This document shows positions 25,573-64,000 of a stretch of 64,000 nucleotides of DNA, in pieces. The position numbers and the translations under genes are program-made. Numbering within the stretch: position 1 is the first letter of the stretch; every line of letters begins with the position of its first letter. The DNA is from Paramecium tetraurelia (taxonomy: Eukaryota; Ciliophora; Oligohymenophorea; Peniculida; Parameciidae). The stretch is taken from the NCBI RefSeq assembly GCF_000165425.1, contig NW_001799300.1, positions 372,001 to 436,000 on the forward strand, in the 5' to 3' direction. The notes under the pieces are model-generated. The model was not told where the DNA came from, searched no databases, and saw nothing but the letters and a program-made list of their open reading frames with translations.

Positions 25573-26281
25573 ATGTTTTCATAAGCTTTCAGACGAGGTC
25601 AATAACCTTTACAATAGTAGCAATAACCGATGAATATTTCGTTCCATAAGTAAGAAACTGAGGTTATTTAGTTAATTGTAAGCCCAACAAACAAAATCCT
25701 TCTCTCAAACTCAATATGAGAAGGAGAATATTAGCCAATTTCTTGGTTCCACTAAAAGACAAAATCTAAATGAGTCCTTCTATTAAGAACAACAAGTACC
25801 TCAAATATCAGAAGTCTATCGCATTTTGGAGCAACTCCAACAGATGATGGTGGTCAAATTCAATGACTTCTAGAGTGTGATCAACGATCAAGAAAAAGCC
25901 ATCAGGCCATTGATTGAGTAAAATACCCAATTGAATAACCAATTAACCAATGTTCTTTAACAAAGTGAGAAGATACTCTCACAACTCACAGCCAATTTGG
26001 AGAAGAGTGAATAGATCAATAAAAGGAATTAAAAAAGGAAGAGCAACGAGGGTTCAGAAGGGGATCTGGGAGCAGTGTAACAACTACTCAAGACACTCGA
26101 TGATAGATTGAACAATTTATCAAATGAAGTGGAGATGATAGCAGAAACAAACAATAGATTCCAAGTGCAAGTGATGGAAGTTGTCAATATCGATAAGTTG
26201 GAACATCGTGAAAACATGCAGAGAGTATTGCAAGAGATGGATAAGGCAAAAAAGTCCATATCTAAAAAAATAAAACGTTGA
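25573..26281 (+). CDS. Coiled-coil protein, about 228 residues, unknown
   Basis: ATG 25573-25575 begins MFSQAFRRGQQPLQQQQQPM. A 22-nt intron (GTAAGA...TTTAG) after FH restores the frame into a long charged helix: EVYRILEQLQQMMVVKFNDF, NTQLNNQLTNVLQQSEKILS and KTLDDRLNNLSNEVEMIAET, ending in a basic tail (KKSISKKIKR) at TGA 26279-26281. The Gln-run near the N-terminus is encoded by CAA/CAG/TAA/TAG alike. Predicted almost wholly alpha-helical; no family recognised. Confidence 0.65.
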
Positions 26282-26615
26282 CATTTTTTTCATTATTATA
26301 TATATATGCTCATTATTATAAATCAGATTTCTTTCAGTAGAATTATTTGTTAATATTACACTTTCAAATTATTGTGAAAATCAAATAATAGCAAAATTTA
26401 AGGGGAAGAACAATGTAAGAATACCGAATGTTTCACTTTTGGATAAAATTTCGATAATTAAGAAAGTCTTGATTTGAAACTGAGGAATTCTAAAATAGTA
26501 TAGAATTATAGGAAATTAGAATATACGCAGATGAATATGGGAATGAAATGTGAGTGTTTGAGTGATTTTGAAAGTAGTGAGGGTAGTCAGTTGTTTATGA
26601 ATTAATATATATTAA
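26282..26615. other. Short intergenic stretch
   Basis: About 330 bp between two plus-strand genes, AT-rich with a short TATATATA tract near 26295. No gene or structured element recognised; it should carry the promoter of VPS13. Confidence 0.45.
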
Positions 26616-29600
26616 ATGTTTGAAGGTCTTATTTAGAAAGTATTGTTAGCCATCTTCGGAAGGTTTATAGATGGACTGGATAAGAAACAAATCAATTTGT
26701 CGTTTTTGAAGGGTAATTTGGTAATCGAGAACGTTTCGATAAAGAAGGAAGCTCTTGAGGCCTTGCAATTACCAATTGAATTAGTGTACAGTTCGATCCA
26801 GAGAATTGAAATAAATCTTCCGTGGAATAAATTGACTACTTAAAGAACAGAAATAAAGATCCATAGTGTCTTCTTGTTGGTCACCACTGTGTCTGAAGAC
26901 ATGTGGGGATTGGAGGAGATCAATTATTATAAACCAAAAGCAGCTCAAGTGAGAGCCTACATAAAGAAAGTGATGGATGAGGAAATAAGGAAGTAGGAAA
27001 CTACGCCAGATAACTAGGAACGTGATCAAAAGGAGGCAGGGTTTTTTCAAAAATAAATAACCAGAATAGTTGATAATCTTTACATTTCAATTTCCGATGT
27101 GCATTTCCGTTATGAACATTGTATTAGCAAACATTCTTTTTCGTGGGGCATCACTATAAACCATTATCACCTAAATAGACAGTGGATCCTGAGTGGAAAA
27201 TTTCATAAACATCTCCCTACATTCATGAACGGCAAGGACTCTACCTTTGTGAACAAACAGATACAATTATCGAAACTGGCAATGTATTGGAACTCCGATG
27301 ATCATTATCTCATTTTGAGTAGCATTATCAAACCATAGCATGACAAAAATATAGATGTTCAAAAAGTCATTGGCAAAATGGACCCATATAAAATTGACTT
27401 GGATCTTCATCAACGTACAGTGTATCAGATTGATGAAAAAATGCAGGCTAGGATATAGTCCAGATTATAGTAGGAATTGGTATACGAGCCAGATAATCTG
27501 ACCATGGGAATTAAAACATCCAAATCCTCAAAATACATATTCTGTCTTAATGCAGTAGCTAATGTTGTACAAACCTATCAGAATTTTAGGAAAGTCCCAG
27601 AATACAAGATTAAAGTGGAATTACAGGAAATGGATTTCAAAATCAAGCATACCCAATATAAAGAGATCTTAAAACTTGTCTCCATATTCAATCTTTACTA
27701 ATACAGTGCCAAATAGCAGATGGACTAGTATCTCACTACTGTTCTGCGACCTTAGCCATAAGATTTCCTGAAGATGGAAACTAACTCTCTCTACCTCAGA
27801 TCCTTATTTTAATATCTTGTTAAAGCATAGATCATGGAAATAAGAAGGAAAAGATTTCTTGAGTTCGAGATGAATGCCCTCTAAAGAAAAACTACACCAT
27901 CAGCATTATTGAAATCTTAGCATAGAGAGTTAAGATAGTATCAATAAATTGTGATCAAGACTTCAATAACTACATTATAGATGTGGGCCAAACAAGCTTT
28001 GGAAATATATGAGCGAGCCAAAGAGCACCATCAAATTGAGTAGGCTTTCAAGAAGGAAATAGAAAAAGCATATAAACCATCAGCTTTTATGGATGAGGAA
28101 ACCTATGTTTATTTAGAGTTTAGATTGTCAATTGTTAAAGGCAGTTTAAAATTATTACGAAAACACAAGAATTTAGAAGAGGGATTCACCCTTTTGTGGA
28201 AGAATTTTGATTACTTTTTGCAGAAGAGAAGAAATAATTTTGAAGTGGAGTAAATAATACAAGATATGGAGGTTTAGATGTTTAGCGTTGAAGAGAAGAA
28301 CGATATAATTGTACCTATAGTTAAGAAGATAAAGAGTTATGATATTTAGGAGAAACCTCTCATCTATTTCAAATTGGAGAAGCATCCCCTATCCAGACCC
28401 AATTACTTCACTAGCATTTATTTGGATGTTCAAAAGATCGAATTCATGGTGTTTGTAGCATCATTATAACGAGTAATTGCCTATTTCAGAATGCCTCCCC
28501 AAGATGATAAGCAATAAGAGGGCAAAGTGAAAGAGAACATAAGCAAGAATAAGAAGGAGCAGAAGAACAAGAATGATGACCCAGATTCTGATAAGAAAAT
28601 AGAAACTCAAACCAAAAACTATATCAGTATCACTATTTAATCTCCAATTGTTATTATTCCAAATCAATAGATCAATGATTTACATTCAGATTGTTGGGTA
28701 TTGAAATTGGGAGACCTGGAAATAATTACTGTCGATGATAGACAAGTACCTGGTTTCATTAAATTAGGATCTGATCATTACAGAAGATTGGGCGTGAGTG
28801 GAGAAAGCATGGGGAAATCACGAATAGTGGAATAATAATAGCCTTTATTGACTGTTCACAATGAAAAGAATTAGCTTGTTAGTTAGTTTAATTTTACTCA
28901 GGTTAATTCGATTAATCCATTGGAAAAATCATCGTCACTCCAACATTTATAATAGCCATAATAGCATTCTCTCTAATAGCAACATTAAAGAAAGCATCAT
29001 AAATCTTAGAATTACGATAATTATGTTATGAAATTAAAATCAGTGTAATTGCAATATTTTTCATCCATTCACTACTTTTACAATTACTAGAAATTGAGTT
29101 AAACTTCAAGGGGAATGGAGATCTTGAATAATCCATTGAGGATGAGATCCAAAAAGTATGATGTCTTGGAGGATTTCTCTATGGAATTGAATCTTTATTT
29201 CAAAAAGAGCAGTCAAGCCAATCTCCCTTAAACAAAGATCAATTTTGAATTGCCCTCTTTGACTGCTTCAATCAATCCTGAAGTGCCTTACACATTTTAA
29301 AAGTTGATGCAAACAATAAATGATTTAAGTGCTGATCAATCCTTAAGTAGCATATTACAATAGGAGAAATCCAAGTTGATTAAATATAGTTCATGCAAAG
29401 GGATCCTGAGAAAGAGAGGCAAATTCTTAAGATCTTGGTCATCCTACTTTGCAGTATTGTCTGGATGGTACATATACTTGTATCAGAATGAGAGTGATGT
29501 TGACTATAATCAATATGTTGGACTACGAGATGTAGTGGTATCTGAAGCATAATAAGATATAGGAGTGTAGAACTCGTTCAAGATCAAATCTAAGAAGGAG

Positions 29601-32600
29601 ATCATCTACTTCTAGGCCAAATCACCATAGGAGAAGAACAGGTGGTTCAAATTCATTCAATAGAAGATTCATGACATCAAAACCAAAACAAATAATCTCA
29701 AAATTGGATCAGATAATACAGTGCCACAATAAAATGATAAGAGTAAGAGGGAATTTGAATAAACAGCAAAGCAAATGCCAAAAGTGAATGATGAATTGTA
29801 GACCAAATATAGATTCCAAATCAAGAGGTTTTAAATTGAATTGAAGTACAATCAATAATCTGAGATCTTAATAACATTCGATTAAATTAAGTTGCTGAGT
29901 CTCTCAGGAATAAATGATAATTACTAAGAATTTACAATTTCTTCCATTTCAATTGAAGATCATGGACAATCCATTTTGAGATCCATCCATTATTCTCAAC
30001 CAAACACTCCTAACATAATGAAAGTAAGGCCAAGTATAGCTGAAAATAAATTACTAAGAAAGATTAAATAGGTTACAGATTATAAGGAAGAGGAAGCCTA
30101 GCAAATTCATGGAGCTATAAGAGTTCGAATGTGCAACACAGACTCTCATCAACCCAATCAACCTTAATCGTACATAGTAGCTTAGCTTTCCTCTTTGGAA
30201 GCTCATTATCTAGAGTCCTTTCTTGCCAAAATCAACTTATTCTTAGTCCGTCCATCTTTGTAGAAGAGCAAAGAAAGTGCTACTGATTTAAGTGAATTTA
30301 CAGATACTACACAACAAACTACAACCATGAAATACACTCAAATACCAGTTAGTGAAAACCAAGTTCATGTAGACTAGATAGGATTTTGACAAAAGTGAAT
30401 ATTAAGAGTGTGAGATCATTTACATTGCAAAAGTCTTCAGTCTCAGATTCTGAATTGCATGAAGGTCAATATGCTGAAAGCAATGAGAAATTACCTGAGA
30501 GTGTCATAAAGGTTTCCATTCTAACTCAAGATATTAAGTTGATTGTGATTGTTTTAGAGAAAGAGAAAGACAAAGAAAAGCCTAACGAATTTTTATAATT
30601 GCAAGTAAATTAAATAGGTGCAGTGTTGACCATTAGTGATGACGAATACTTTATCGAAGGACATATTTAGAAAATAGAAATTATTGATTTAAAGTCATTG
30701 CAAGGAAATCGGCATATGTTTTTGGGGAAGAAGGAACAAAAAGAGAGGAAAAAAACTAATGAAGAGAAGATCAAGAAAAATATTGGCATTCCAGGATTAA
30801 CTATATTCTCAAATAAGCAATAAATTGAAAAAGAGATGGTGTAATTTAAATATTCTAAATTCAAAATCCCAAGCAATAACAATGATGTTTCAGATGATCT
30901 TTATTTGATAGTCAGAGATTGTTTCATAGATTACTTGCATGCTACAATTATAAAGGTTCTAAGTTTATTAGAGATTGCTTAGAAGAAAAAGCAGGCCAAT
31001 CAGGAAGAAAATGAGTAAGATTTAGAACTTATCAAATAGAAACTCAATTCTCCTTCATTTTTCAAGATTAAAGTCTTACTCGAAAACCCAAAGATACTTA
31101 TTAAACCTGCTGGGAATATTAATCAGTCCTTTGAACTTCAAATTAAGTAAGTAAGTTTTGAGTTGGATGCTAGCTAAGAGAAAAATAAAATTCTTGAGAT
31201 GTCTGTAAGGGCCAATAAGAAATAGATCCAAATAGTTGACAAATTGGATTCGCTGTGGTGGTAAATCATAGTTGTCTCTGCAGACACAATGAGAATCTAG
31301 ATTAGAAGTTCCTCTGAATTGCAATACATATCAAACCCATTTTCTGGAGTGTTACGTATCCAAACACCTATGTTTGTGAGTGAATACGAAACTATATTTC
31401 CTAACATAGTTCTTAATAGGAACCAAGAGATCAGAATCAAAGTAACTGATATTCAACTGAACATCTTAAGGAATCATTATTTATTCTTATTGCAGGTTAT
31501 GCAAACCTAATATGAAATTTAGAGTTTAAAGACTTAGAAGAAGAGAAAGCAGTAATAGTAAGTGAAGAAATAGCAGAATCAAGCTGCATTGATATTCAAA
31601 CTATCAAAAATCACCATCAGACTAATGGATGAATGCAATTAGTTTGCCTCACAAGGTCAATTTCTCAGACCTTTGGTGGATTTAAGTTTATTAGACATTG
31701 TATTTCAATTTAAGACGAATATATCCTTGCAAGTTTAAGATCTAAAAAGCACATACTACCAGTATCCGCTATAAGATGATAACAATTTGACAGTGAGAAT
31801 ATAACATGTGCATCAATAATATATATTTGGAACGGAAAAAATTAGAGGAATTTTTGGATGAGGACATTTTGGAGGAAAAGGTTAAGGAAGTGAAGGAACT
31901 GATCAATGAGATGAAGATGGAATTTTATAATGAGTAACCAGTGAGTAGATTTGATATAGATGACAAATTGAGTGTCAAAGCAATATTAGGTGAGGACTCT
32001 ACAGATGTCAGTATTAATATTGGTGAATAGAAATACTTGATTAATGCGTATTACCTTAAGACAATCGCTTTGTTTTTTGAAATACCTAAATATGAAGATG
32101 AAATGAAAAGTTAATAATCTCCACCTTCACAATAAACTATTCAAGCTTAATACAAGTAAAAATAGCCTCTATTAAATGTGAACATTATTTTACTCAAGAC
32201 TCTAATAATCACTCATAATGAAGCATTAAAAAACTGTTTGGTTTTGCAATTGGATTCGTTTATCAAAGTTGAATGATGAATTAAATAACGAAGCTCATCG
32301 TAACTACCATTTAAAGAATAAAGAAATATATTCAAATCAATAGAATATAAAGAATAGAAAATTGGAGTTGGAGTCTCACAATATCAGTGTTTAATGCCAA
32401 CTTTGCAGCTATCTAAAAGATATCAAAATAGACTAAGAAAAAGATGATATTATATCCAATAAAAATTGAGTTCAATAGAAACCAATTTACTTGTGAGTGT
32501 GATATAAATTACTCTAATTATAAGTTAGATGGCCAGCATGAATAAATATCTAATATCATAACATAGGATTAATTAAGGTTTGATAAAATTAGAATCAATA

Positions 32601-35600
32601 CTTCACACAATGATTATGCTCTGATACTACAAACAGTCTAGTATTAACAAGAATAGGTTAAGTTGTGCGACTAATTTTTCAGTGATGATCAAGAATCTTC
32701 TGTTAATGAAACCATAATTCGTTAGTTGCCTATTAAGCCATCATTAGTGACTGAATTGACGATTCTGAGTAGGAATGATACAAAAAGAAAGAGTTTCTTG
32801 CCTGGAAAATCGCAATTAAGCAGGTTAAAATCAAGTGTGCTCTAAGGGTCTCAATAGAAGGATGAAGTAATGTAGGTGTTTTATGCAGGAGTAGATTAAG
32901 ACATGGAGATGGTTAAAGAGGAGGAGATTTTGTCTGAATAGGAGTACCAATATGAAACAATAAAGCCATAGGTGAAAATAAATAGAATGAAGATAAAGTT
33001 GGATCTTCTGGAGATAGTATTGGTTAATGATATTAACAAATCATTCGCTCCATTATTACTCTTTAGATTTAATGTGAAGAAATTTATGTTTGATCAAAAC
33101 TACATCAGCAAAGCATTGAAATGTTTATTCCAAATTGAATTGATGTATTTCAATCCTGTTGTGAGTAAGATGGAACCCATCATAGAACCCTATCTATCAG
33201 AATTGTTGATTGTACAACAAAATCAATATATGCAAACAATCCATATTAATGGCCTTACACCCATTTTGGATATGAATCTATCCACTGATATGATCCTCAA
33301 TCTATACAAGACGTTGACTCAATGGCAGTAATTAGACTAGGATGATGAAGAGGACACCTTCAGAAGAAATGAATCCAAGAAGATTACGAGATTGGCTAGT
33401 ATGAAGGGTATCTCTTTCAAAGAAAACCAAGATAATGTGACTCTCTTTTCACTTCATAATAAGAGTGGGTATGCTCTGAAGGTTTAGAAGAATGGAAATG
33501 ATGGTTTAATAGAAATATCAAATAATGATTCTAAAAATTATGAGGTACAATCTCATGATGAGGATTATGCTAAGACCTTTGAAAGTGACACAAGACTAAT
33601 GATTAAATTTTTAGATGCTTCAATGGCTCAAAATGCTATTAGTAATGTTCCTATCAATTATGCTGGAGTTAAAAAATTATAATGGAATGACCAAGCATAA
33701 TACTATGTACTCAGTACTTAAATTGAGAACTTGTAGAAAACAATTACCATTTATTCTCCGTACATGTTTGTTAATCAAACAGATTGTGATTTGTCCATCA
33801 AATTATCTTGCATCAAAATTACAAAGAACTTTATCCTCAAACCAGGAGAACAAGCGGCCATGCCTCAAGAATTGTATAAGGACGATAGTTTTATTGTGAT
33901 TCATTTCTCAGATTCCAAATACACCAAATTAACTCAACCAAACGAACCCATATTCATTAAGAGGATATTCCATGACATTACCATTTTAATACATCACTAC
34001 CCATGTTACACCTTAGCCACTCTCAATACTACCTTAGTTTAGAATGTCAAATATATTGAATTTAAACCAGCCTTTATTTTATACAATTTATTACCAGTTC
34101 CTCTTTAGTTTCTGTTTCACTCAAATGAGAATCTGGAAATTCAAAAATTCATCATCAATCATTACAAGAGACCCAACAACGTAATTCAATACGAAAAGCA
34201 ATAATCGGCATTGTCCAGAGGGAATTCATTGTCACATTTGTAGAATGATTAACATGATAACCTAGTGAGATCAGTAACAATTACAGAATTTAATTACACA
34301 GCAACAATTAAAGTAGAATCAGGATTGATAGAAGTAGTTCCTTAAGGGCAATTATAGTTGCATTGGTTGAAGAATGGGGATCATTTGGGAATCAATTTAC
34401 ATGTCAGTGGCTTCGAATTAAGTTAGTAATAAGATATTACATAAGCCACTGAATTTGAATTGAGAGACACTAATAATAGTTAAAGTTGCCACATCAAGGT
34501 AGAAAAGGAACAGGCTAAATAGACCAAATTGATTTATTTTTCAGTCCAAACTTGTATTATTAACACAACAAATCAACGATTAAAATATTACACTTTGAAA
34601 GATGAAAAGCCACTACTATTATCAGGATAAAACAAGGAACCTAAACCAGACAAAGAGAGTTTTGAGAGCAATTATGAAAAGATCTAAATAACTGACACCA
34701 TTAAATATTTGATGATAGGAGTGGAGGATTGCATCTCCAATGAGGTTAATGTTGGTATCTTGGGTTCTTTGGGATTGCAATTGAAGTAAAAACATGGAGG
34801 TATCGTTTCATTAAACGAGTTCGGTATTCACATTTCATTGGCAAACAACGTAATTAGAAAGGGTGTCTATACCAAAGTCATTGAGATTATGCCGAGATTT
34901 GTGGTGTTGAATAATACAGGTGTACAAATCAATATTTGTTAATCGGGATATGAGTCATAACCAAAACGATTAAATCCGAACGAGAGATATCATTTGATTT
35001 GGCCTGATTGCAGATTAGAGAAATCAATCAGAGTCTAGAAGTGCGGTAAATACAATTGGAGTGGAGACTTGTTTATTAATGAAATTAGAAGTACAAACTT
35101 CTTTTCTTCTGGCACTAATGAAAATAGTTAATAATTAAGCAACATTTCCATAGAACAGCAGAAGAGTCGAATATTTGAGAAATCAGGCATCTACAAATAG
35201 TTCAATCTGAAGAAATACGATCCTTAAGAGTTTCTCAATTATAAAGAATCATTGCCATTGCAAACCTCAATGCTTTGCTAATCAAGTTAGGATTTCTTTA
35301 AGGATTGCTTGTTCTTGACTGCTGAAATTACGAAGGTCAAGGCCACCAATTTCATTTTACTGGAACAACAAAATGAGGAGAATCAGCTCTACAAATTGGT
35401 CAACAAGTGTAGGCCATTCAAAATACATTATGGATAAGATAGTTATAACAGCTTTTAAGAGTGGGTGTTGGATTGCGATTAAACAGTGCCTTTTTCTTGG
35501 GAACAACCTAGTCATTCATTCAAGCTTAAAGTCAAATTTGTTTACAATCAGAAAGTTGAACATATTGAAATCATAGATTTCTAATAATAGGAGAGTCTTT

Positions 35601-37579
35601 AGGAGATCAAATTTTCTAATTATTTTGTGTGGATAAAGTCTGAATTCTAAGGATAAACCAGAGTCATTACATTTTAATAAGTCAATGAAACCATGCGCAA
35701 TATGACTACTTCTCATAAACGAGAAATTGAGGATATTCACAAGTTAATTAAATTGTACATCTCTCAATTAGGTATTTCCATAATAACAAAGCGGTAAAAC
35801 ATGCTTCTTGAAGCCAACTACATATATATGAGTGGAATTGAATTAGGAATCATGCAGACTGAAAATGAAACTACTGCTCAATTGAGAGTCAAGTTTTTTC
35901 ATATTGATAATAACACTTCTTTGGATACTACTACTCCCGTCTTGATGACATTGAGAAGGTACTATTAAGTCACACATGATCGAAATTACTACTTTTTAGA
36001 AGCCAGTTGTTCCTTTGAACATTAAGTCAAAGCCATTTTACTGTACAATTCCATCAAAATCTACATTTAGCCATTCCAATTACAATTTGACGAAGAATAT
36101 ATTCAAGTAGTTCTTGAAACCATCAAGTAAGTCAAATAGTGTCTCTAAAACTAATTTGAATTAGAGTATAATGGATCACCTCACTCAATCAAATCTTTAT
36201 GTTTCTAAACTCCTTAACAAAGACATTATTACTTGGAATCTATGTTTTAATAGAACTCATCCAACCCTTGTATTGTATGGAAGTCTCTAGAAATTAAAAG
36301 ATCAAAGAAATAGGTTTACATCAAAGAGTTTGTTCTCTCCAAAATCGATTTACGATTCTCGTTTCATAAAAGATTCAGAACAAATATTTAATATGATGAA
36401 AATGTATTCAATCTATTTTCTACAGCCATTGGAGCTACAGTCTAAAACTTTAATGAAGCTGAAATCATCCTAGATTGTTTCAGATTAAGATCAGTCTATG
36501 ATTCAAAAGATATTGTACTCCAATCTATTTAAGATCATTATAAGAGTGAGATTATCAGAGCTATCTTAAAAATAATTGGATCCATTGAAATCATTGGAAA
36601 TCCAGTTAAGTTTGTGCAATAAATTACAAATGGAGTTGTTGACTTTGTTGAAATGCCCATACAAGGTTTACGACATGGTCCACTTGAATTTGGTGTTGGA
36701 TTATGCAAGGGTACAGGATCTCTATTAAAAAATACAGTTGCTGGAGCCTTCTACTCTGTTAACAAAGTCACTGGATCTATCAGTGCAAGTGTTTCATTAC
36801 TTACTATGGATGATGATTATTTGGAAAAACGAAGAATATTCATGTTGAAAAGACCTGATCATGTTTTGGATGGATTATCCTAAGCAGGTCATTGTCTTTA
36901 TAATGGATTTTCTAATGGAATTACTGGTGTTGTCACCCAACCATATCAAGAAACTCAAAAAAATGGATTAAAAGGATTCGTTAAGGGCACCCTGAAGGGA
37001 TTATCTGGTTTGGTTGTTAAGCCTATAGCTGGAGTTCTAGATGCCAGTGCAAAAGCAGCCGAAGGTGTTGTTTCGACTGCCACTCATTTCGATGATAAAC
37101 CAAATGACACCCGAATCAGATATCCAAGGATTTTCTATGAGAAATCTAAATACTTTTAAAAGTATATTGCTTTAGATGCTCAGGTAGTTAATTTCCTGGT
37201 TGGCTTTATGAATGGAAGATATAAGGACATCGAAATCGTTACCTGCTTTCACTTGAAGGAAACTGAAACCTAACTCAACAACATGCAGAGACAAATATTA
37301 TCTGCTACTAAATCGATTCATGAATGTTTTAAGTATACTTCTAAAATACTAATACTATCATATTAATATATTTTAGTACTTGAGAACATGACACTTGTGT
37401 AAGAGATCATAACAAAAGAAATCGTAGAAATATCACAGCCAATTAATGGATTCCTTAGACTCTCAACAGAATTCAAACAAAATATAGAAATCAACATACT
37501 GTTAGATGAAATCGAATTGAAAAAAGCCACATCATTATTAGATTACTTACATTAATAAGTTAAAAGTCAATATGATTGA
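26616..37579 (+). CDS. VPS13: VPS13-type bridge lipid-transfer protein with internal PH domain
   Basis: Close to 3,650 residues, the size of VPS13 proteins, which form a hydrophobic groove that moves phospholipids between organelles. The start MFEGLIQKVLLAIFGRFIDG is the classic chorein N-terminus, followed by LPWNKL. A PH domain is inserted at about 29395-29700 (CKGILRKRGKFLRSWSSYFA, IYFQAKSPQEKNRWFKFI). The adaptor-binding SHR-BD/VAB region is near 33600-35150 (HGGIVSLNEFGIHISLANNV, IEIMPRFVVLNNTGVQINI). The C-terminal domain is at 36540-37200 (HGPLEFGVGLCKGTGSLLKN, NGLKGFVKGTLKGLSGLVVK). Frame breaks occur at the T4 run 30384-30387 and the A6 run 31836-31841. A third, near 32270, can be bridged by a 26-nt GTTG...GAAG intron. 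The homopolymer positions suggest consensus errors, but a decaying duplicate is possible. No start-region doubt. Confidence 0.9.
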
Positions 37580-42699: not shown

Positions 42700-45600
42700 A
42701 TGAGAAAGAATTAGGTGAAGAAAAAAGACAAATTTGAGGATGGAATCAGAAGGATAGTCAATGTACATAGATAAAATATTTCGGATATGATTCTCAATAA
42801 ATTGACACTCTGCATTGTTGAAAGTTAAAGCATTACTCTAAATGATTTTGCGAGAAGATGGTTAATTTAAAATTCTACAGTTCGCACTGACAACCTTTTG
42901 GCTGGTTTCGTTGATGAACATTATGCACCTTATGTTGAACTGAAAAGCTTTAACTTAAATTACTAAATCGTGAATACTAAATTATTGGAAAGTAGTAATT
43001 GGAGTTATAAAATTCTAAGTATATATATCGAAATAACATTTAGAAAAATTTGCTACAAATGCCTTGTAAAAAGATATAGACATTATAAATTTACTAGCTT
43101 ATATGCAAGTAATCATTATGGGGTTATTTTCTTAAGCCGATTCCTCTATGGTTACATCTGTAATAAATTTTGAGCATCTTGGTCCACTTTAAGCCTTCTT
43201 TTATACAAAAACAGATAAAAATATGACTCTTTTTTGGGAGGTTGGAATAGATAAAATTCCTAAAATTGCTCGAGTGGCTAAAGAATATTAAAAGGATTTG
43301 TTAGGTTATGATTATATTCATACAATAACATTCATTGATTGCAGATATGATTGCAAAGTTGACTAAAATGCTGCGAAATTCGTTACAAATTATTATTAGG
43401 AAGTTAGATCTGCTATTCATAGATAAGATTATTAATCAGTTATTTCAACTTCAAAAGGTTATCAAACAATAAAGCATTCAAGTTAGGAATATTTATTCTC
43501 AATTGAAAATAGTGATTTAGGAAGTATACACGGCGAATTGAACTATAATAAAAGATAGAATGACATTATAAAATGGATGCCAAATAGATTTCCTACTATT
43601 TATTTAACAAAATAGGAATAGTAATCATTTAAATACGATGAATCAATTAAAAGATGGGTTAGTAAAGACTATGAGGCCATCGAATAGGCTAAGAAAATGA
43701 GGGAATATTAAGCCAAGATAAATAAGGATTTATTAAAAAGATACGCCGATTTTTCATCAGCAGCTAAGCTTGTTGAATTGTTATAAAAAGTCCCTAATTT
43801 TAAGATAAAGTTAACATAAGAAGAATAGGAAGTGGTTGGATCAGATGGAAATGTTATGGTTATTGGTAGGAGTGGGACAGGTAAGACTACATGTTCAATC
43901 TTGAGACTTTTCGCTATGGAAACCTTATTTAAACTAAGATTAGAGTTATACAAATAGAAACACGAGAATGTTCTTTAGAATTATAAATACGATGATTAAG
44001 AAGTTGATAATAATGTTGGATTGCATTGTGTGTTTGCAACAGCTAGTCCTGTATTGACTACAGAAGTGAAAAGATATTATTAAAAGTTGACAGCATAAAT
44101 CAAAGCTGAATTAGAAAGGAAGAAATAAAAAGATCGATTGACACGTTTACAATAAGAATAGGAAGCATAAAGATAAGAAAGTGAGAATTAGTTCAATTAA
44201 AGCACAGTTTAAATTGTAGATGATGCTAAATAGATTGAAGAAAATTACTTTGAATAATAAATAAAGGGAATCTATCTATAAAAAGAGTAGGCAGGATTCT
44301 AAGAGGATTTAAATGAGGAGGATTGGGAAAAAGAGGAAGCGAAATTGAAATAAGAGTTAGATGCTTTTCATTCATTTGCTGATATGTAAGATTCTGATTT
44401 TCCAGCTTTTTTAACAATAAAAAAGTTATTGTTATTAATTGATGGATCACTTGCAAATCCTTTCTTCTCTCGTACTTAAGAAAACAAAATAGTCAACTCT
44501 GCCACTCATGCATAATGGAGCACTGAGAATACAGGAGTGATATTTATAAACACTTACAAAAAGGGTGGAGATTAAGATATGGAATATGATGATGAGGAGT
44601 ATGAGGCATTATTTGATGAGAATGAAAAAGACCTAGATGATATGGATGAATATGAACTTGAATAGGAATATTAAAGACAATTGTACTTGATGAACAAACC
44701 TTAGTGGTAAGAAAAGGAGGAGAACAATATGACCAAACTCTCTTAGGAAGTGGATTTCGACTTTTTCCTAAATAATTTTTGGTATAGTAAAAAAAATAGG
44801 TATTAAAATAATAATTTAAATCCAGCATTTGTTTGGACTCAAATATACTCTCATATCAAAGGTGATGCTGCTTCTCATACATATCCTGGACATTTTATAC
44901 CGAAGAAAGTATATATGAAATTAAACAAAAATGATAATCTTTTTGATGAAATCTTTGAATGCTATGTTCATTATGAAAAATGGAAGATTTAACAAGGATA
45001 TTATGATTTTATGGATGTAGTCAACCACATTCTTGTTTAATTGGTCTGCGGAAAATGTCATCTTATTCCCATTCATTATCTGATGATTGATGAATGTCAA
45101 GATCTGCCCCATGCTGTTTTACTGTTGTTGTGTAAAATAACTGAATAGGGTTTATTCTTCAGTGGAGACACTGCTTAAAATATCGCAAAGGGTGTTGGAT
45201 TTAGATTTTAAGATTTGAAGTCTCTTTTCAGGAAACCTGAAATCACTTATAATGCTAAACAAAATGATTTAAAAATTCATTAACTCACAATCAATTTTAG
45301 ATCACACAACAACATTTTATAATTAGCAAACTGCCTTGTTTCCTTATTGGAGATCTTCTTTCCAAACACGATTGACAAATTGAAAAAAGAAAGATCCAAT
45401 ATTTCAGGTCCAAAACCAATCCTAGTCAATGGGGATAAAGATGAGTTATTTTATCTTTTATCTGGAGAACATGCAGATAAAAATTAGTAAGTTGGGGAGA
45501 GACTGCCTATTGAATTTGGTTGCAATTAAGTCTTAATTGTAAAGGATTAAGATTCAAAGAAAAATATTCCTTCCATTTTACAGCACGCCTTAGTATTAAC

Positions 45601-48600
45601 CATTTATGAAGCAAAAGGATTGGAGTTTGACGATGTGATACTCTTTAATTTCTTTTAAGATCATTACATAGGAGATACCTAATGGAAATTATTAATGACT
45701 TGTGATATTCTGGATGAAGAAATTAGCAAGGAGAAATTCCTTGATAGTTGTACTAAACATTAGACCTTAGATGATGAAGCAACCATTTTTACAGGTTTCG
45801 AGGAAAGGAATGGTAACATTATAGTTAAAAGAATCGCTACTTAAAACAAATTCTACGACGAGTTAACCTACAATTATAGTTAGTTATGTAATGAGATCAA
45901 ATAATTATATGTTGCTGTCACAAGACCGAGACAACGATTAATTATATATGATGAAAATCCTTAAGCCAGATAATACATGTAAAATATATGGTAAAAACTT
46001 AATTTGATTGAATTCTTTGTATAGAGAACTCAGGAGGATAAAAATGTTGAAAGGTTTGCCAAATAAACATCAAAAGAGGAATGGAAAAAATAAGGGTTGA
46101 AAATGTTTAGAAACAAATATTATGAATAAGCTGAAAAATGCTTTGAATAATCTAAAGATGAACAGCTCTTCATAAAGGCAAGGGCTTTCAAGGTTGCAAC
46201 AGAAGCCAATGCACTTATATAATAATATTCCCAAACTTCATCCAATGGTGGAATGACAAAGAAAGATAAAAAAAAAATCTTAGCCTCATTGAAGCAACAA
46301 TAGAAAGAAAAGTTTACTGAATCAGCACAGTTATTTATGAAAATTCAGAATTACAAATAAGCAGCTTAATGTTACTATTCAGGTGAGATGTATGAAGAAG
46401 CATTAAGCATATATGTTAAGTAGGAAATGTTCAATGAGGCTGGAGAAGCAGCTTACAAATGTGAAAAGTATTCTGAAGCAGCTGATTATTTTTTTAAATC
46501 TAATGATTTTATTAGAGCTGTAGATGCATGCGAAAAGGCAGAAGCTTATGAACAGATATTTAATGTAATTCATTAATTGAGAGATAAAATACCAGTTGAA
46601 ACTAGATCTGCATTTCTAAAGAAGTACTTGCCAATAATCCTAAATAAAATGACTACTTAGATTGGATAACTTGAATAAGTGAATGAATAGCTAACAAAAA
46701 ATTAAGAAAAAAAGCCACTTATTATTGAAGAGAGTTCGGATGAGGAGGAGGATGATGAGGATGAAGAAAATGGAGATGGAGATGGAGACAAAAATTAAGT
46801 GGAGAAGGTTTAAAATAAGACAGGAAAAGAAGAGTAATAAGAAAAGATTATTGAATTAAGTAGTTAATTAATACAATCACTACCTGATCAATCATAACCA
46901 TCTATTTTGGTTAAGCAAGAAAGCATGAATAATAATTCTGATGACTCCTAATCATTTTCAGTATAAAACACATAAAGCTTTTAAATTGAATAAGACCAAG
47001 TCTAAAATAGTAAAATAATTAGTGTTGCTGAATCTGAATCATTTTAAGTGGAAAAAACATTTAAAGAGGATGATGAAGTGGAATAAAACTTTGAACATTT
47101 GTCTCACTTTGATCCAGAGGATTAATGGTTGAGAAATGATAACAAATCCATTATTGAAACAATTGCATCAAAAAAGAGTGAACAATCTGATTATTCTGCT
47201 TTTTCATATGCGTAAATGCATAGCAATCCGAATGTTTAATTCGTAAAAACCAAAGCAGATATTTTTATTCAGGATACAATAATGTAATAAATTATTAAAT
47301 ACATCTCAATGTTCTCGGATGAATTTAAATATTAATTGTATAATTAAAGAAGTAAATCAGCATAACTCAGTAATAAATAGGTTGATTAACATTAATTTGA
47401 TTATATGGTTGACTTTATGTTGGATTTAGATTTGGTTGACATCTCCTTTATTTTTTTGGTTTTAGATATTTTAGAATAGTTCAAGAATTACAAATTATGC
47501 ATTTTTGTTTGCAATAGATACAAATTGGCCGATCAATTAGGAAGATATTTAGTCTCAATTGCATCAACATATTCACCTCTTGCATTGCACTCAGCTAGTT
47601 TGAATGTTTAATACTTAATTAATGGGAAGCAAAGATAAGCTTAAATTGATAAAGGTTTGGTTTCAGCATTTGCAGTCCATAATGTATTTGAAAACATTAA
47701 TCCAGAGTTCATTACATTGAAATTTAATAATGTTAAGCTTACATCACAAAATTCATTGGGCTTAGAATGTTATTCATAGTTGCTATTATTAGGATTTTGG
47801 AAGAAAACTGTATACTAAATGGATGTTTAAAATTCATTATTAGTTTGTAAATTGTTTATGGATTTTAAAAATTGGAGATTCATTTATTATAGTAATTTAA
47901 GTCATTAGGTCACTAATAAGATTATAGAAAATGAACAAAAAGATAAAGATTTGGCCTAAGTCTATTAAACAACATTAATATTGATATAAAAGAAGCTTGA
48001 TATTTGTTTTTCAACTATGATAAGAGGAATTGATATGCTAACAATTACATATCCAAAAGATTAGTAGGAGATGGAATTCGCGATTATTACCTTGGAGCAA
48101 TATTACAGTGAATTAATAACATAAATGGTAATGAATCAGAAGGCTCCGCAAACTTTATTCTATAGACCTCATACATTAGATCTTCAAAAAACTATTAAAG
48201 TCGAACTAAATCCTAAGTAGAATCTACCTAAAATGTATTCATTAACTGAAGAAGTAGTCTTTTACTTGATTAGTAAAACAGAAGTTCCGGAAGAAATTCT
48301 TAATAAATTATGTAATATTGTACTTGATTACAAGAATCCTCATAACGAATTAGAAATTTATCAATCTGTGTTTCTACTCGTACTTTATTGTTAATATGTT
48401 GTACATAACTCAGGATTGGTTAAGACTCAATCTTGGATTACGTAATTAGATGCCAAAACATATGCTACACTAATAAAATCTCTTAGATTTATCAAGAGTT
48501 TGTTGAATACAAACCAACATTGCCTGTAGAAATTATCAAAAATTGTTACCAGAAGTGTACTATTTTACTTTAAAATCAGATAGCCAGAAAATGTAGCTTT

Positions 48601-50596
48601 ACTTAAACCATATTTTAATTCAGTAATAATCAATCGATCATCTGTAATCATATAGGGTTTAATTGAAAACAGACATAATTTACAATTGAAGGGCAATAAA
48701 ATTGTGTTGGATGATTATTACTTTGTAGATATTGATTTTGAATTCATTAGTGCCCCAAGATCTTCTGTGATATTTTTGATTTCAAAGAAACTTAGCAATG
48801 AATTGAATTCCATTACTTCTTTAAGGAGAGCTTCTTTTGATGAATATCATTTTGATCAATTGTACCCACATGAATATGAGGATCACTTTGAAAATTTGAG
48901 TATCTATTTATATAGTAGATAAAACTCCACTTAAAATTATTAATCAAGAAAGGACACTAGTTCGATAACTGTTGATGATTGGATAAAAAAGGAATTACAA
49001 ATAAGTTCTTAGAAGATGCAAGAAAGCTTAGAGAAGAAGAAAATTTAATAGATGGATGATTCAGGTGGTATAAAATTAATATTTAAGAAAAACCAAAAAC
49101 ATTCAAAATAATAACATTCTTTTATGAGGAATCCTTATCTTAAATGTTTATCCTCTGAATCAAGAAATTATAATACTCACCAGGCTTTAAAATATATTAA
49201 TCAACAACATAAAGATTCAGATTCATTCCATTCTGGTATGGTAAAATTCATCCATTTAATGAATTATGCTAGTAATAACCACTTCACCTATTAATACATC
49301 AACAGAAAAATTGAATAAGGATAATCTAGCAAATATGAGCCTTATCTTCAATATTTAGAATGCTTAATATGTAAAAAATTTAACGTGATTTCTGATGCCA
49401 CCGATCTTTATTTTTCATATCTGGAAGTTAGAAAAGATTTAATGGCTGCAGATGAATTATATTATCAATTATCTTATTTATTTTTGAATAACATAGTTGG
49501 ATATTTACTGAAAAGTAAGAATAATTGTTAGATCAAAATTGCTAATCGATACTTTATTTACTTCGATAAGATTACTTAGCCTGATGAGTAGTCATATCTA
49601 AATGAAACAAACTTTCATCCCATATCAAATTAGGATGGAATTGCCAATATAATAGAATAATTGTCAGATTTATAAAAAGATTAACCTTAAGCATTCGGCT
49701 TTAAAATCATGCTATTAATTTACACTTTAGTGCTTAATTTAAATGATATCAAAGCACATGTGATAACTGAGATTAAGAAAATCATCTATAATGTAACTGC
49801 TTAAGACGAAGTGGAATAATATGCATAAATTATGAAAGCTGTCAACTTGCCTGATAAACAAAGATTTGATGCTTTGACTATTAATTCTAATGTTATCAAA
49901 TTAGTCTTTGCTTAAAACATTAAGTTGTATTCTTTAAATGTTGTAAATAAACTAACAGCCTAAACGATTGATGATGCATATCAGAGTTGTTTAGATGAAT
50001 GGTCAAATATACAAAAAAGAAGTGAAGAACTTGAAAATAAAACAAGGAAAATAGTGACAGCTTTAAGGGAAAAGTAGAAATAGGAAAAGTTCGTTAACCC
50101 TTACTTCTATGGATTTGGTGAATATGAGTTTTCAAGGAAATTCAAGACATCCAAATATATTGACATAATAAATGAATTCATTAGAATTAGAAAGATATTA
50201 TTGTCTACATTCTATTCTATGTTGTTGACAAACTCAATTGATTTCCATTTTATTTCATTGCAATTAAAACAGCTGGATAAGAAGGAAGATGAATTCAATA
50301 CTTTATGGGGAAATTACTCATCTAAACAGATGATCCAATCAGAGTTTATTAAATAATATGATGAATAATACAAGAACACATCAGTAATAATTGAAACCTT
50401 ATTGTAATGGTAAAAAAACAATGTGACATTTGAATAAAATGCTAATAAATTGCTTGAAAGGAACAGGAAATTATTGGCCTTAAAGTGGATGAGTAATAGA
50501 GCTGGATTGGCACTTCAGAAGATTCAAAAGAAAAAGAAGGGCTTAAAGAGACAAAAGTTGTAAGAGCAGAAAAAATTAATTATGAAACTATAGTGA
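42700..50596 (+). CDS. Giant UvrD-like SF1 helicase with TPR-like repeats (TRANK1-type)
   Basis: About 2,600 residues. ATG 42700-42702 starts MRKNQVKKKDKFEDGIRRIV. At roughly 43.8-46.0 kb lies a superfamily 1 helicase core with ordered motifs: I VMVIGRSGTGKTT, II LMIDECQDLP, III FFSGDTAQNI, IV INFRSHNNI, V TIYEAKGLEFDDVIL and VI LYVAVTRPRQRLII. A solenoid of helical pairs follows (KQEMFNEAGEAAYKCEKYSE, AADYFFKSNDFIRAVDACEK), then an acidic Glu/Asp run, a Gln/Ser-rich linker and a long helical C-terminus ending in basic repeats (IQKKKKGLKRQKLQEQK). Fused UvrD core plus TPR/ankyrin-like repeats is the layout of animal TRANK1 and related protist proteins, whose function is poorly known. The N-terminal region is needed to read through short introns, such as 25 nt near 43018-43042. 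ATPase motifs look intact; nucleic-acid unwinding is inferred only. Confidence 0.8.
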
Positions 50597-61242: not shown

Positions 61243-63413
61243 ATGAAATAACCTGTCGAATTTAACAATTATCAACTATTAGAAGAAACACAGAAATTAG
61301 ATGAATTAATTTTAGATAATTAACTAGTTCAATATAATAGAATTAAAGTTAAAGTTGTCTTTACAAAAGACAATGATCTATATTATATCAGAGATGGATA
61401 AATTTTAAGAATGTAAATTTTAGAGGTCTATAAGCTATAATAGAGATAAAATGATGATCCCCTTTAAGTTACCTTATATCTTATATAATTTAGAACAGAT
61501 ACAATACTTATAATGGGAAGGAGAGTATAGTAAAAGTAATGAAAAAATTGGAAAATGGAAGGCTAGATGGAAAGGAGAAACTTTAATTGATGTTGGAGGC
61601 TAATACTGCTAAGATGGAAAAAAATAGGGCCTTTGGAAAGATATAATATAAAATTATTCTAAGTTAATTATTTTTTAATTTTGAAGTTTAGCATAGGTTT
61701 ATGAATGTGGAGTTTATTACAGCGACAAAAAATAGGGGGAATGGAAGTACCTCTATGAAGAAGAAAAGATGTAATGCAAACTATTATTAATTTAATAGTG
61801 GAGGTGGTATCTACAATTAGATGGGTCAAAAAAATGGAAAATGGATAGATTTGAGTGATGGTTTTATGTTACACACATAAGTAACTTATTCTGGTGAATA
61901 TAAAAATGACATTAAAATTGGCCTATGGGACGTTTGGTTAAAGCACAAATATGGAAACTCAAGTAGTTCTCATACTTGGTGCATGTAAAATTTATTATAT
62001 TTATGATCGAAAACCAAAATTTTTAGTGGATCAGGATCATATGATGAAAGAGGCCATGGTATGAAGATTGGGAGATGGATCGAATTGAGTGATAGATTAT
62101 TTGAAACAACATTAGTAACCTATATTGGCTATTATAACAATGGGAAAAAAACTGGCAGGTGGGATATTTGGTTAACTCAGTTAAGTATATATCAAAGTCA
62201 TAAACTAAATTTATTAATGTAAACGTAATTATATAAAGTTTTTACGTAATGTGGATAGTGGAGGAGGATCTTACGATGGAGAAAATGGCTTTAAGAATGG
62301 GAAGTGGATTGAAATAAGTGAGGGGTCTTGTGAGAATGAATTAATAACGCATAGTGGGGAATATCGAAATGGTAAAAAAATTGGGAGATGGGAGACATTT
62401 TATAAAGAATATTATGTTAATGGTTTTACTTTTCAAGCTGGAGGATCATATAGTGAAGAAGGGGATGGCTTAAAGATTGGAAAATGGATTGAGTTAGACG
62501 AAAACTTTTCTAGATTCTCCTAAGTAATCTATAAAGGCGAATATCAATTTGGCCGAAAAATTGGGAAATGGGAAATTAAATCTTAAATGGATTAGATGTA
62601 AAGAATTAAACATTAAAAATTTAGAGGTGGAGGATAATATGATGAGGAAGGTTAGGGTTTGAAGATTGGAAAATGGATAGAGCTAAGTCATGATTTTTCT
62701 TAAGACTTATAAGTATTTTACAAAGGAGAATATCATATTGGCAAAAAAATTGGGAGATGGGAAATTGAAAATGAAAGGAAACAGATGTAAGGAATTAAAA
62801 ATATAACAACTTTAGAGGTGGAGGATGTTATGACGAAGGAAGTAGTGGCTTTAAGGTTGGGAGATGGATTGAATTGTGTGAAGAAAGTAAAAGTGATTCA
62901 TTAATAACTATTATTGGTGAATATGAAAAAGGGAAAAAAATTGGAAGATGGGATATTTGGTATTAAAACTACGCTAAGAATAAATTAATGTATGTATAAA
63001 ATAAATAATTTTAGTGGTGGTGGATTATATGATGAAAGAGGTCTGAACATTAAGATAGGGAAGTGGATTGAATTAAGCGATAGATTCACATAGGACTAGA
63101 AAGTCATTTATAGTGGTGAATACAAAAATAATATGAGATCTGGGAGATGGGATATTTGGTATTAGAAAGATAATGAATTTTAAAGAATGTAAATATTAAA
63201 ATATAGACATTTCCTAGCGCTGGAGGATAATATTAAGGCGATAGCATTAAGATTGGGAAATGGATTGAGTTGAGTAAAGGATTTAGGAGTAACAATTAGC
63301 CATCAGAACAAATAACTTATCATGGTGAATATAATAATGGTAAAAAAGTTGGTATATGGGTTGCAATGAATCTAAACTGTAAGAAGCTTAAAGAATTGAA
63401 TTATAATAATTGA
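61243..63413 (+). CDS. Protein of tandem MORN-variant repeats
   Basis: ATG 61243-61245 (MKQPVEFNNYQLLEETQKLD). After a short helical start the protein is an array of about nine repeats of roughly 60 residues, each built on GGGxYDExGxxxKIGRWIELS and GEYKNGKKIGRWDIWY. Glycine-tyrosine/tryptophan hairpins of this form belong to the MORN-variant (MORN_2) group. The first degenerate copies lie before 61700 (KIGKWKARWKGE, KQGLWKDI). Most repeat junctions are short phase-2 introns at the same codon (61985-62026, 62219-62258, 62598-62624, 62787-62815, 62990-63014, 63189-63217). Splicing upstream of 61790, including a GTTACC...TTTAG intron near 61478, is not fully resolved. It ends NLNCKKLKELNYNN at TGA 63411-63413. 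Function unknown; MORN-type sheets usually bind proteins or lipids. Confidence 0.75.
61795..63400 (+). repeat. Tandem exon-plus-intron repeats (about 190-230 bp units)
   Basis: Eight successive units begin near 61797, 62027, 62259, 62439, 62625, 62816, 63015 and 63218, each starting with a glycine-rich GGTGGAGGA-like block and containing an AAGATTGGGAAATGGATTGA-like block about 40 bp later. Units are diverged, not identical. Six of the junctions carry an intron of 25-42 nt. Confidence 0.85.
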
Positions 63414-63868: not shown

Positions 63869-64000
63869 TCAATCTTATTAAACTAATTTACCCTTATCCC
63901 AAACACCAACAATCTCTGTTCCGTTTGCTTCAATTAAAATTCCTTTTCCATGCTATTTACCATTATGCCATGCTCCTTTGTAGGTTTTCCCATCTGCGAA
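63869..64000 (-). CDS. MORN-repeat protein, C-terminal end (partial)
   Basis: The minus strand reads FADGKTYKGAWHNGKQHGKG and ILIEANGTEIVGVWDKGKLV before TGA at 63869-63871. YxGxWxxGKxHGxG is the canonical MORN repeat, found in proteins that bind membranes and cytoskeleton. Only the last repeats are inside the window; the rest lies beyond its right edge. This is a standard MORN type, different in spacing from the MORN-variant array next door. Confidence 0.8.

Follow-up and report, generated by a model that had tools for sequence, protein, structure and literature searches.

The gene and its repeats

The window analysed here is a stretch of 64,000 nt from the genome of Paramecium tetraurelia and is read with the ciliate code, in which TAA and TAG specify glutamine. 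Its plus strand carries a repeat-array gene that runs from an ATG at 61243 to a TGA at 63411-63413 (Table 1). Scripted splicing gave a reading that is open from ATG to TGA, with a provisional N-terminal frame. The gene finder's choice for that part (NRYNTYNGKESI...) was dropped and the frame EGEYSKSNEKIGKW...GGQYCQDGKKQGLW preferred because it matches the half-repeats of the family. Downstream of the N-terminal part the array consists of eight repeats of the form GGGSYDExGxxKIGKWIELSDxF...VTYxGEYxNGKKIGRWDIWY. Every repeat in the gene comprises two hairpin half-repeats (GxY...KxGxW and GEY..GKKxGxW), and the repeat is not leucine-rich. Exon lengths in the array vary from about 160 to 190 nt, that of exon 62625-62786 being 162 nt.

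Table 1. Coordinates of the repeat-array gene and of its features within the window
Feature	Position	Strand	Basis and remarks
Repeat-array gene	61243..63413	+	ciliate code, TGA stop; exon structure before about 61520 tentative
Predicted mid-repeat intron (A), 24 nt, N-terminal repeat only	61663..61686	+	gene finder instead 61663-61691
Predicted junction intron (B), 28 nt	61771..61798	+	junction rule and exact gene-finder call
Predicted junction intron (B), 42 nt, multiple of three with in-frame TGA	61985..62026	+	junction rule and exact gene-finder call
Predicted junction intron (B), 40 nt; alternative of 34 nt from 62225	62219..62258	+	junction rule; gene finder took 34 nt
Three-repeat stretch, open in the genome	62260..62784	+	input for structure model, 27-nt intron kept in
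Intron-less junction, read through	62392..62436	+	junction rule and gene finder
Tandem DNA repeat, period 189, 2.1 copies	62439..62842	+	covers two exons and two introns
Predicted junction intron (B), 27 nt, stop-free multiple of three	62598..62624	+	junction rule; no gene-finder call
Predicted junction intron (B), 29 nt	62787..62815	+	junction rule and exact gene-finder call
Predicted junction intron (B), 25 nt	62990..63014	+	junction rule and exact gene-finder call
Predicted junction intron (B), 29 nt	63189..63217	+	junction rule and exact gene-finder call

Seven of the eight repeat junctions hold a predicted phase-2 intron that follows an exon ending in AT and reads GTA...TAG, so that the junction codon becomes Ile. 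The initial annotation had described six of these, of 42, 40, 27, 29, 25 and 29 nt, all in phase 2, each beginning with GTA after an exon-terminal AT and ending one base before the repeat block. Direct reading together with scripted splicing reproduced all six exactly and added the shared TAG ends. The base after the intron completes the Ile codon and the next codon is GGN in five of the six and GCT at the last. The count was nevertheless incomplete: a seventh, of 28 nt, went unreported; it lies upstream of the coordinates that the annotation had covered.

As a second line of evidence we used a gene finder built on a homology-free codon model with a flat intron-length prior and trained on the window minus this gene. 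Five of the seven introns were called exactly. The 40-nt intron has an alternative in-frame 5′ site that yields 34 nt (62225-62258), and this was the site the gene finder favoured. It called no intron at 62598 and kept 62598-62624 in the exon; being a stop-free multiple of three, this 27-nt intron is dispensable for the frame. The gene-finder background placed 48 of 96 introns at 22-29 nt, with a noisy flat tail (28 of 96 above 40 nt) that came largely from two very long gene calls, and length comparisons were therefore made with published distributions. Those two calls, at 25573-37579 and 42700-50596, contain many doubtful long introns. A background based on over-represented GTA..TAG spacings elsewhere in the window was discarded as too noisy.

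Predicted fold and likeness to MORN proteins

The window protein gave no MORN match against Pfam at E up to 1. There was likewise no match in NCBIfam, and none in a PDB sequence search at E up to 1. The family consensus scored 15.7 bits against PF02493 (E 0.014), below the curated cut-off of 22.5, and a weak MORN match (E 0.3) was found in one of five other family proteins scanned. The neighbouring gene served as a positive control for the scan, with E 4.5e-6. This opposite-strand neighbour (63869-64000, minus strand, running on into locus L044) encodes a canonical MORN repeat protein, the PF02493 match being that of its in-window part. Membership of the MORN family by sequence was rejected for our repeat, since both the window protein and the consensus fall below the Pfam cut-off, and we therefore call it MORN-like.

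A structure model of the three-repeat stretch, with the 27-nt intron kept in, is all-beta (pLDDT 86.3) and folds around the retained segment. Its best matches among solved structures are MORN proteins or MORN-containing complexes, and some of the top matches are presumably radial-spoke complexes. The predicted fold appears to resemble MORN arrays, and in the model the introns would fall in or beside the turns between hairpins. Compared with the 23-residue MORN repeat (GxG/YEGEW), the half-repeats show GxY...KxGxW and GEY..GKK.GRW, with a spacing that differs between the halves. The features apparently in common with MORN proteins as outlined in PMC7725318 (PF02493; TbMORN1, PfMORN1, TgMORN1) are half-repeats of the type G.Y/GEY..GKK.G.W and a predicted beta-hairpin array. 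Unlike a PF02493 MORN repeat, however, one repeat here equals two hairpins with different loops.

Repeat junctions across the gene family

The array pattern is wider than initially described and extends across the genome. Searching the genome of the window (69 Mb, 231 contigs) at the protein level returned 122 matches on 24 contigs. A further 23 loci were retrieved, and L021 among them contains two genes in tandem. A profile search then yielded 189 repeat-to-repeat junctions. Seven without W or Gly anchors were discarded and 182 were scored; these derive from the window and 22 loci, with none from L042. At 163 of the 182 junctions there is a phase-2 GT..AG of 18-60 nt whose 3′ end leaves exactly one base ahead of the repeat that follows; 200 dinucleotide-preserving shuffles gave a mean of 5 and a maximum of 13. 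When 3′-end offsets from -6 to +24 were tried (31 offsets, 181 junctions), more than 11 matches were obtained at +1 only. Because paralogues share ancestry, the 163 junctions are not separate events, and their GT-AG ends are true by construction of the rule. A reading with exon AT followed by intron GTA is possible at 133 of them. The gene finder called 100 of the 163 exactly and 26 with other ends, leaving 37 uncalled, 20 of which are multiples of three.

The remaining 19 junctions lie outside the rule, 12 of them open in one frame and 7 not. In the window, the exception is the 45-nt junction 62392-62436, which reads ETFYKEYYVNGFTFQ followed by AGGSY and in which we found no in-frame GT..AG of 18-60 nt, as expected from the initial annotation, which saw no spliceable intron near 62424. 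That annotation offered loss or exonisation as the cause. The 23-nt remnant-like stretch would break the frame unless an indel compensated for it, which speaks against simple exonisation; a clean loss with later drift is just as possible. Eleven other junctions among the 182 are likewise open and lack a rule intron, at least one of them (in L026) with another in-frame candidate. Therefore, the junction in the window is not unique.

The loci also differ in size and setting. L027, on a 12-kb contig (C106), is a very large array with 35 profile matches and repeats up to 97% alike, and many of its junctions are off the intron rule. For 17 of the 24 array loci a contig end is less than 20 kb away, where 13% would be expected (p 2e-10); leaving out the 12-kb contig, the count is 16 of 23. 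This enrichment is only suggestive because assemblies break at repeats and contig ends may not be telomeres. The few contig ends inspected showed no telomere repeats. The array in the window is about 48 kb from its own contig end.

A second intron position within the repeat

Position A is a further predicted phase-2 intron site, inside the repeat rather than at the junction (position B). Window-type repeats have exactly 48 nt between their halves and no intron there. Among 61 half-to-half gaps longer than 60 nt, 38 carry an AG exactly 22 nt upstream of the second Gly together with a frame-keeping GT upstream. In 100 shuffles this signal had a mean of 1.2 and a maximum of 7 at any offset. Alternative ends occur at 16 nt in 18 gaps and at 25 nt in 9. 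Splicing at 22 nt would give a spacing of 16 residues, equal to that of the intron-less gaps. Of 59 predicted A introns the gene finder called 25 exactly and 13 with other ends, with 21 uncalled, and it placed an intron in 4 of 78 clean 48-nt gaps.

Position A is unevenly distributed over the family. In ten divergent loci (L032-L035, L037-L041 and L043) we counted 51 A introns, a single clean 48-nt absence and 21 gaps that fell in neither category; the corresponding counts for the eleven window-type loci are 8, 71 and 14. These classes were drawn post hoc, with the data already seen, and L027, L036 and L042 belong to neither. In seven of twelve window-type genes an A intron lies in the N-terminal repeat, one of the seven adding a doubtful A near the C-terminus, and in the other five none was found. 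The equation of one repeat with one exon in the initial annotation accordingly holds only in part: exon 62259-62597 contains two repeats, and in other arrays position A splits the repeat.

In a tree of 145 repeats, built from 41 columns and with 106 of 142 inner branches unresolved, the N-terminal repeats from nine loci cluster with support of 97 in a group of ten, of which nine have A and one lacks it. The presence of A requires 21 changes on this tree, against 43.7 when labels are shuffled (0 of 500 as low), and the starred branches force at least two. A single loss of A is neither established nor clearly contradicted, given the poor resolution and these forced changes. The unit that was amplified in window-type arrays had probably lost A; the loss would have preceded amplification, because these arrays mostly lack A and keep it mainly in the N-terminal repeat.

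Intron lengths and translatability

The 163 junction introns, which are predicted and were picked by the rule, range from about 21 to 57 nt. Of these, 110 fall at 20-30 nt, while 27 lie above 34 nt and 11 above 40 nt. In published distributions, about 98% of P. tetraurelia introns are reported at 20-30 nt (PMC5485702) and more than 95% of Paramecium introns at 20-34 nt (PMC11334263). Introns above 40 nt were counted as 720/94,711, 1,366/94,686 and 1,218/87,545 in three aurelia species (PMC5485702). The family has 27/163 and 11/163 where under 5% and about 1% are published for Paramecium species. For these rule-picked, sequence-predicted introns, the surplus above 40 nt reaches significance in the comparison with every one of the three aurelia species (p 6.5e-8 to 2.9e-5). 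With classes that were drawn post hoc, later junctions of window-type genes have a median of 30 nt (n=75) versus 27 nt (n=61) for junctions of the other class (p 0.0002; on gene medians p 0.034). The first junctions of window-type genes, with a median of 26 nt (n=10), are shorter than the later ones (30 nt; p 0.03). Mid-repeat introns have a median of 25 nt (n=59).

Such lengths raise the question of whether the 42- and 40-nt pieces in the window are simple introns, or instead use another 5′ site or belong to a longer exon, as in the 34-nt choice from 62225. Arnaiz et al. (PMC5485702) regard most predicted introns above 40 nt as likely annotation errors, most Paramecium introns fall within 20-34 nt (PMC11334263, PMC5485702), and the gene finder did choose 34 nt. 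However, the 42-nt piece has an in-frame TGA, has no alternative GTA..TAG and was called exactly, and the exon-AT, intron-GTA boundary with its Ile junction codon agrees with most of the family. We consider the other-site reading doubtful, though it deserves real weight.

A related concern is that some or all of the introns that are stop-free multiples of three, 62598-62624 included, are an unspliced coding linker. Introns of this kind are reported to be depleted genome-wide in Paramecium (PMC11334263, PMC5485702). Here they number 37 of 163, and a shortage of translatable introns was not significant among the family's stop-free introns (37 of 134, p 0.17 against 1/3), which is what a linker would allow. 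The gene finder left 62598 in the exon and the structure model folds around it. Against this, the ends and phase of these pieces are identical to those of adjacent introns that shift the frame, 62598 and the 29-nt intron at 62787, whose removal the frame demands, are 83% identical, and the gene finder called 23 of 50 multiple-of-three introns exactly. Translation of these pieces therefore seems unlikely to us, and we take all seven window introns to be probably spliced in vivo.

Exon and intron as a probable duplicating unit

The initial annotation held that exon and intron were duplicated together. The constant position and phase speak for this, as does one pair in the window; for most pairs, however, the intron sequence adds little. 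The pair lies in the tandem DNA repeat of Table 1. Separate alignment of exons and introns, a check that the annotation had suggested, found the introns at 62598 (27 nt) and 62787 (29 nt) 83% identical and their exons 73%. Elsewhere, intron pairs aligned by BLAST in L031 (37/37/38 nt) and L021 (39/40 nt) have 81-89% identity. Intron length is array-specific (Kruskal-Wallis, permutation p 0.0002; 159 introns, 22 genes). Moreover, introns are more alike within genes than between genes, which holds when stratified by length (p 0.0005). Most same-gene pairs have an identity of about 0.50-0.53 versus 0.48 between genes, no more than chance allows. Because most same-gene introns are this near to the between-gene level, co-duplication rests mostly on position and phase. 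The nearest relative was found within the same locus for 62 of 152 repeats (10.7 expected), a count inflated by L021 holding two genes. These two genes, at about 0.9-4.1 kb and 4.4-7.5 kb of the locus, are about 70% identical over 2.7 kb, and most of their paired introns differ in length. Duplication of exon plus intron is well supported in outline, with a sequence-level demonstration for a minority of pairs.

The low likeness of most same-gene pairs, barely above that between genes, would also suit introns gained separately at a hot site, for instance a fixed boundary sequence, after an intron-less repeat had been amplified. The boundary DNA (AT, GGN GGN) is itself conserved and could attract insertions. 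Yet tandem pairs share intron sequence, intron length is array-specific and the position is common to divergent arrays, including the N-terminal units that group together. Separate gain is therefore very improbable. We can give hardly any credence to the gene being a decaying pseudogene whose frame breaks mimic introns. It is true that one junction is intron-less and that the family is enriched close to contig ends, where decayed copies are often found; yet all breaks are repaired by a GT..AG that keeps one place and one phase, and the spliced reading, its N-terminal frame provisional, is open from ATG to TGA.

Taken together, we regard it as highly probable that the gene is a MORN-like hairpin-pair array whose units, a phase 2-2 exon with a tiny spliceosomal intron, were copied together, the history of positions A and B included. 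In this model each repeat would correspond to a symmetric exon (phase 2-2), with a tiny spliceosomal intron placed at the turn that separates it from the next repeat. Unequal recombination between units would add or remove blocks of exon plus intron with frame and splicing preserved. Gain or loss of a block would harm neither, because all units start and end in the same phase. The copying itself was presumably by unequal crossing-over. The ancestral array may have carried one intron per hairpin, at both A and B, and the window-type unit would have lost A and kept B before it was amplified. After amplification, single B introns would have lengthened or been lost.

Comparison with other exon-intron arrays

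We found no description of this family in Paramecium in the open-licence PMC literature, searched mostly by titles and abstract openings. The closest precedent comes from Tetrahymena LRR genes, whose exons are 90 bp, as outlined in PMC6564038; these too belong to a ciliate and are made of tandem exon-plus-intron units that are strongly phase 2. According to that account, the two systems have in common array-specific intron lengths, introns above the genome background in presumed younger units, and enrichment near ends, which are chromosome or subtelomeric ends in Tetrahymena and contig ends here (PMC6564038). Ectopic recombination was proposed for the Tetrahymena arrays, and its authors suggested a single origin of this gene type, in Tetrahymena (PMC6564038). 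The features that define the type were found here to differing degrees: one boundary position and one phase at 163/182 junctions, in phase 2, and, in a minority of pairs, recent copies alike in both the sequence and the length of their introns. In contrast to the Tetrahymena genes as PMC6564038 outlines them, the repeat is MORN-like and not an LRR, the exons are of variable length and hold two hairpins where those of Tetrahymena are exactly 90 bp, the introns are about 21-57 nt where those of Tetrahymena run to hundreds, and there is a second intron position. The family works like the Tetrahymena LRR arrays and is a separate gene family.

We tentatively suggest, as a possibility still short of an even chance, that Paramecium independently built a MORN-like, clonally expanding array of phase-2 exons, a type proposed to be unique to Tetrahymena LRR genes. 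The ladder from A and B to B alone would then reflect intron loss in a founder, amplification of the exon-plus-intron unit and, lastly, introns that escape the Paramecium length limit, as a retained or lengthened intron would only add residues to a turn. Introns are usually seen once each, which makes their length and loss hard to study. Here a single genome offers about 160 copies of one intron position and about 60 of another, spread over arrays that differ in age, and in an organism whose introns are normally near 25 nt. If the splice sites are true, the set could test whether longer or translatable tiny introns splice worse and at what cost, and whether new ciliate genes have repeatedly arisen by way of phase-2 exon arrays.

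Tandem units of exon plus intron in one phase are already known; this family differs from the Tetrahymena case in its repeat, its tiny introns and its two intron positions. Symmetric-exon tandem repeat genes such as collagen and plant LRR genes have a repeat per exon and introns in one phase. The difference from genes of that type is that the introns of this family are tiny and can be traced, in length and in presence, across some twenty arrays of one genome.
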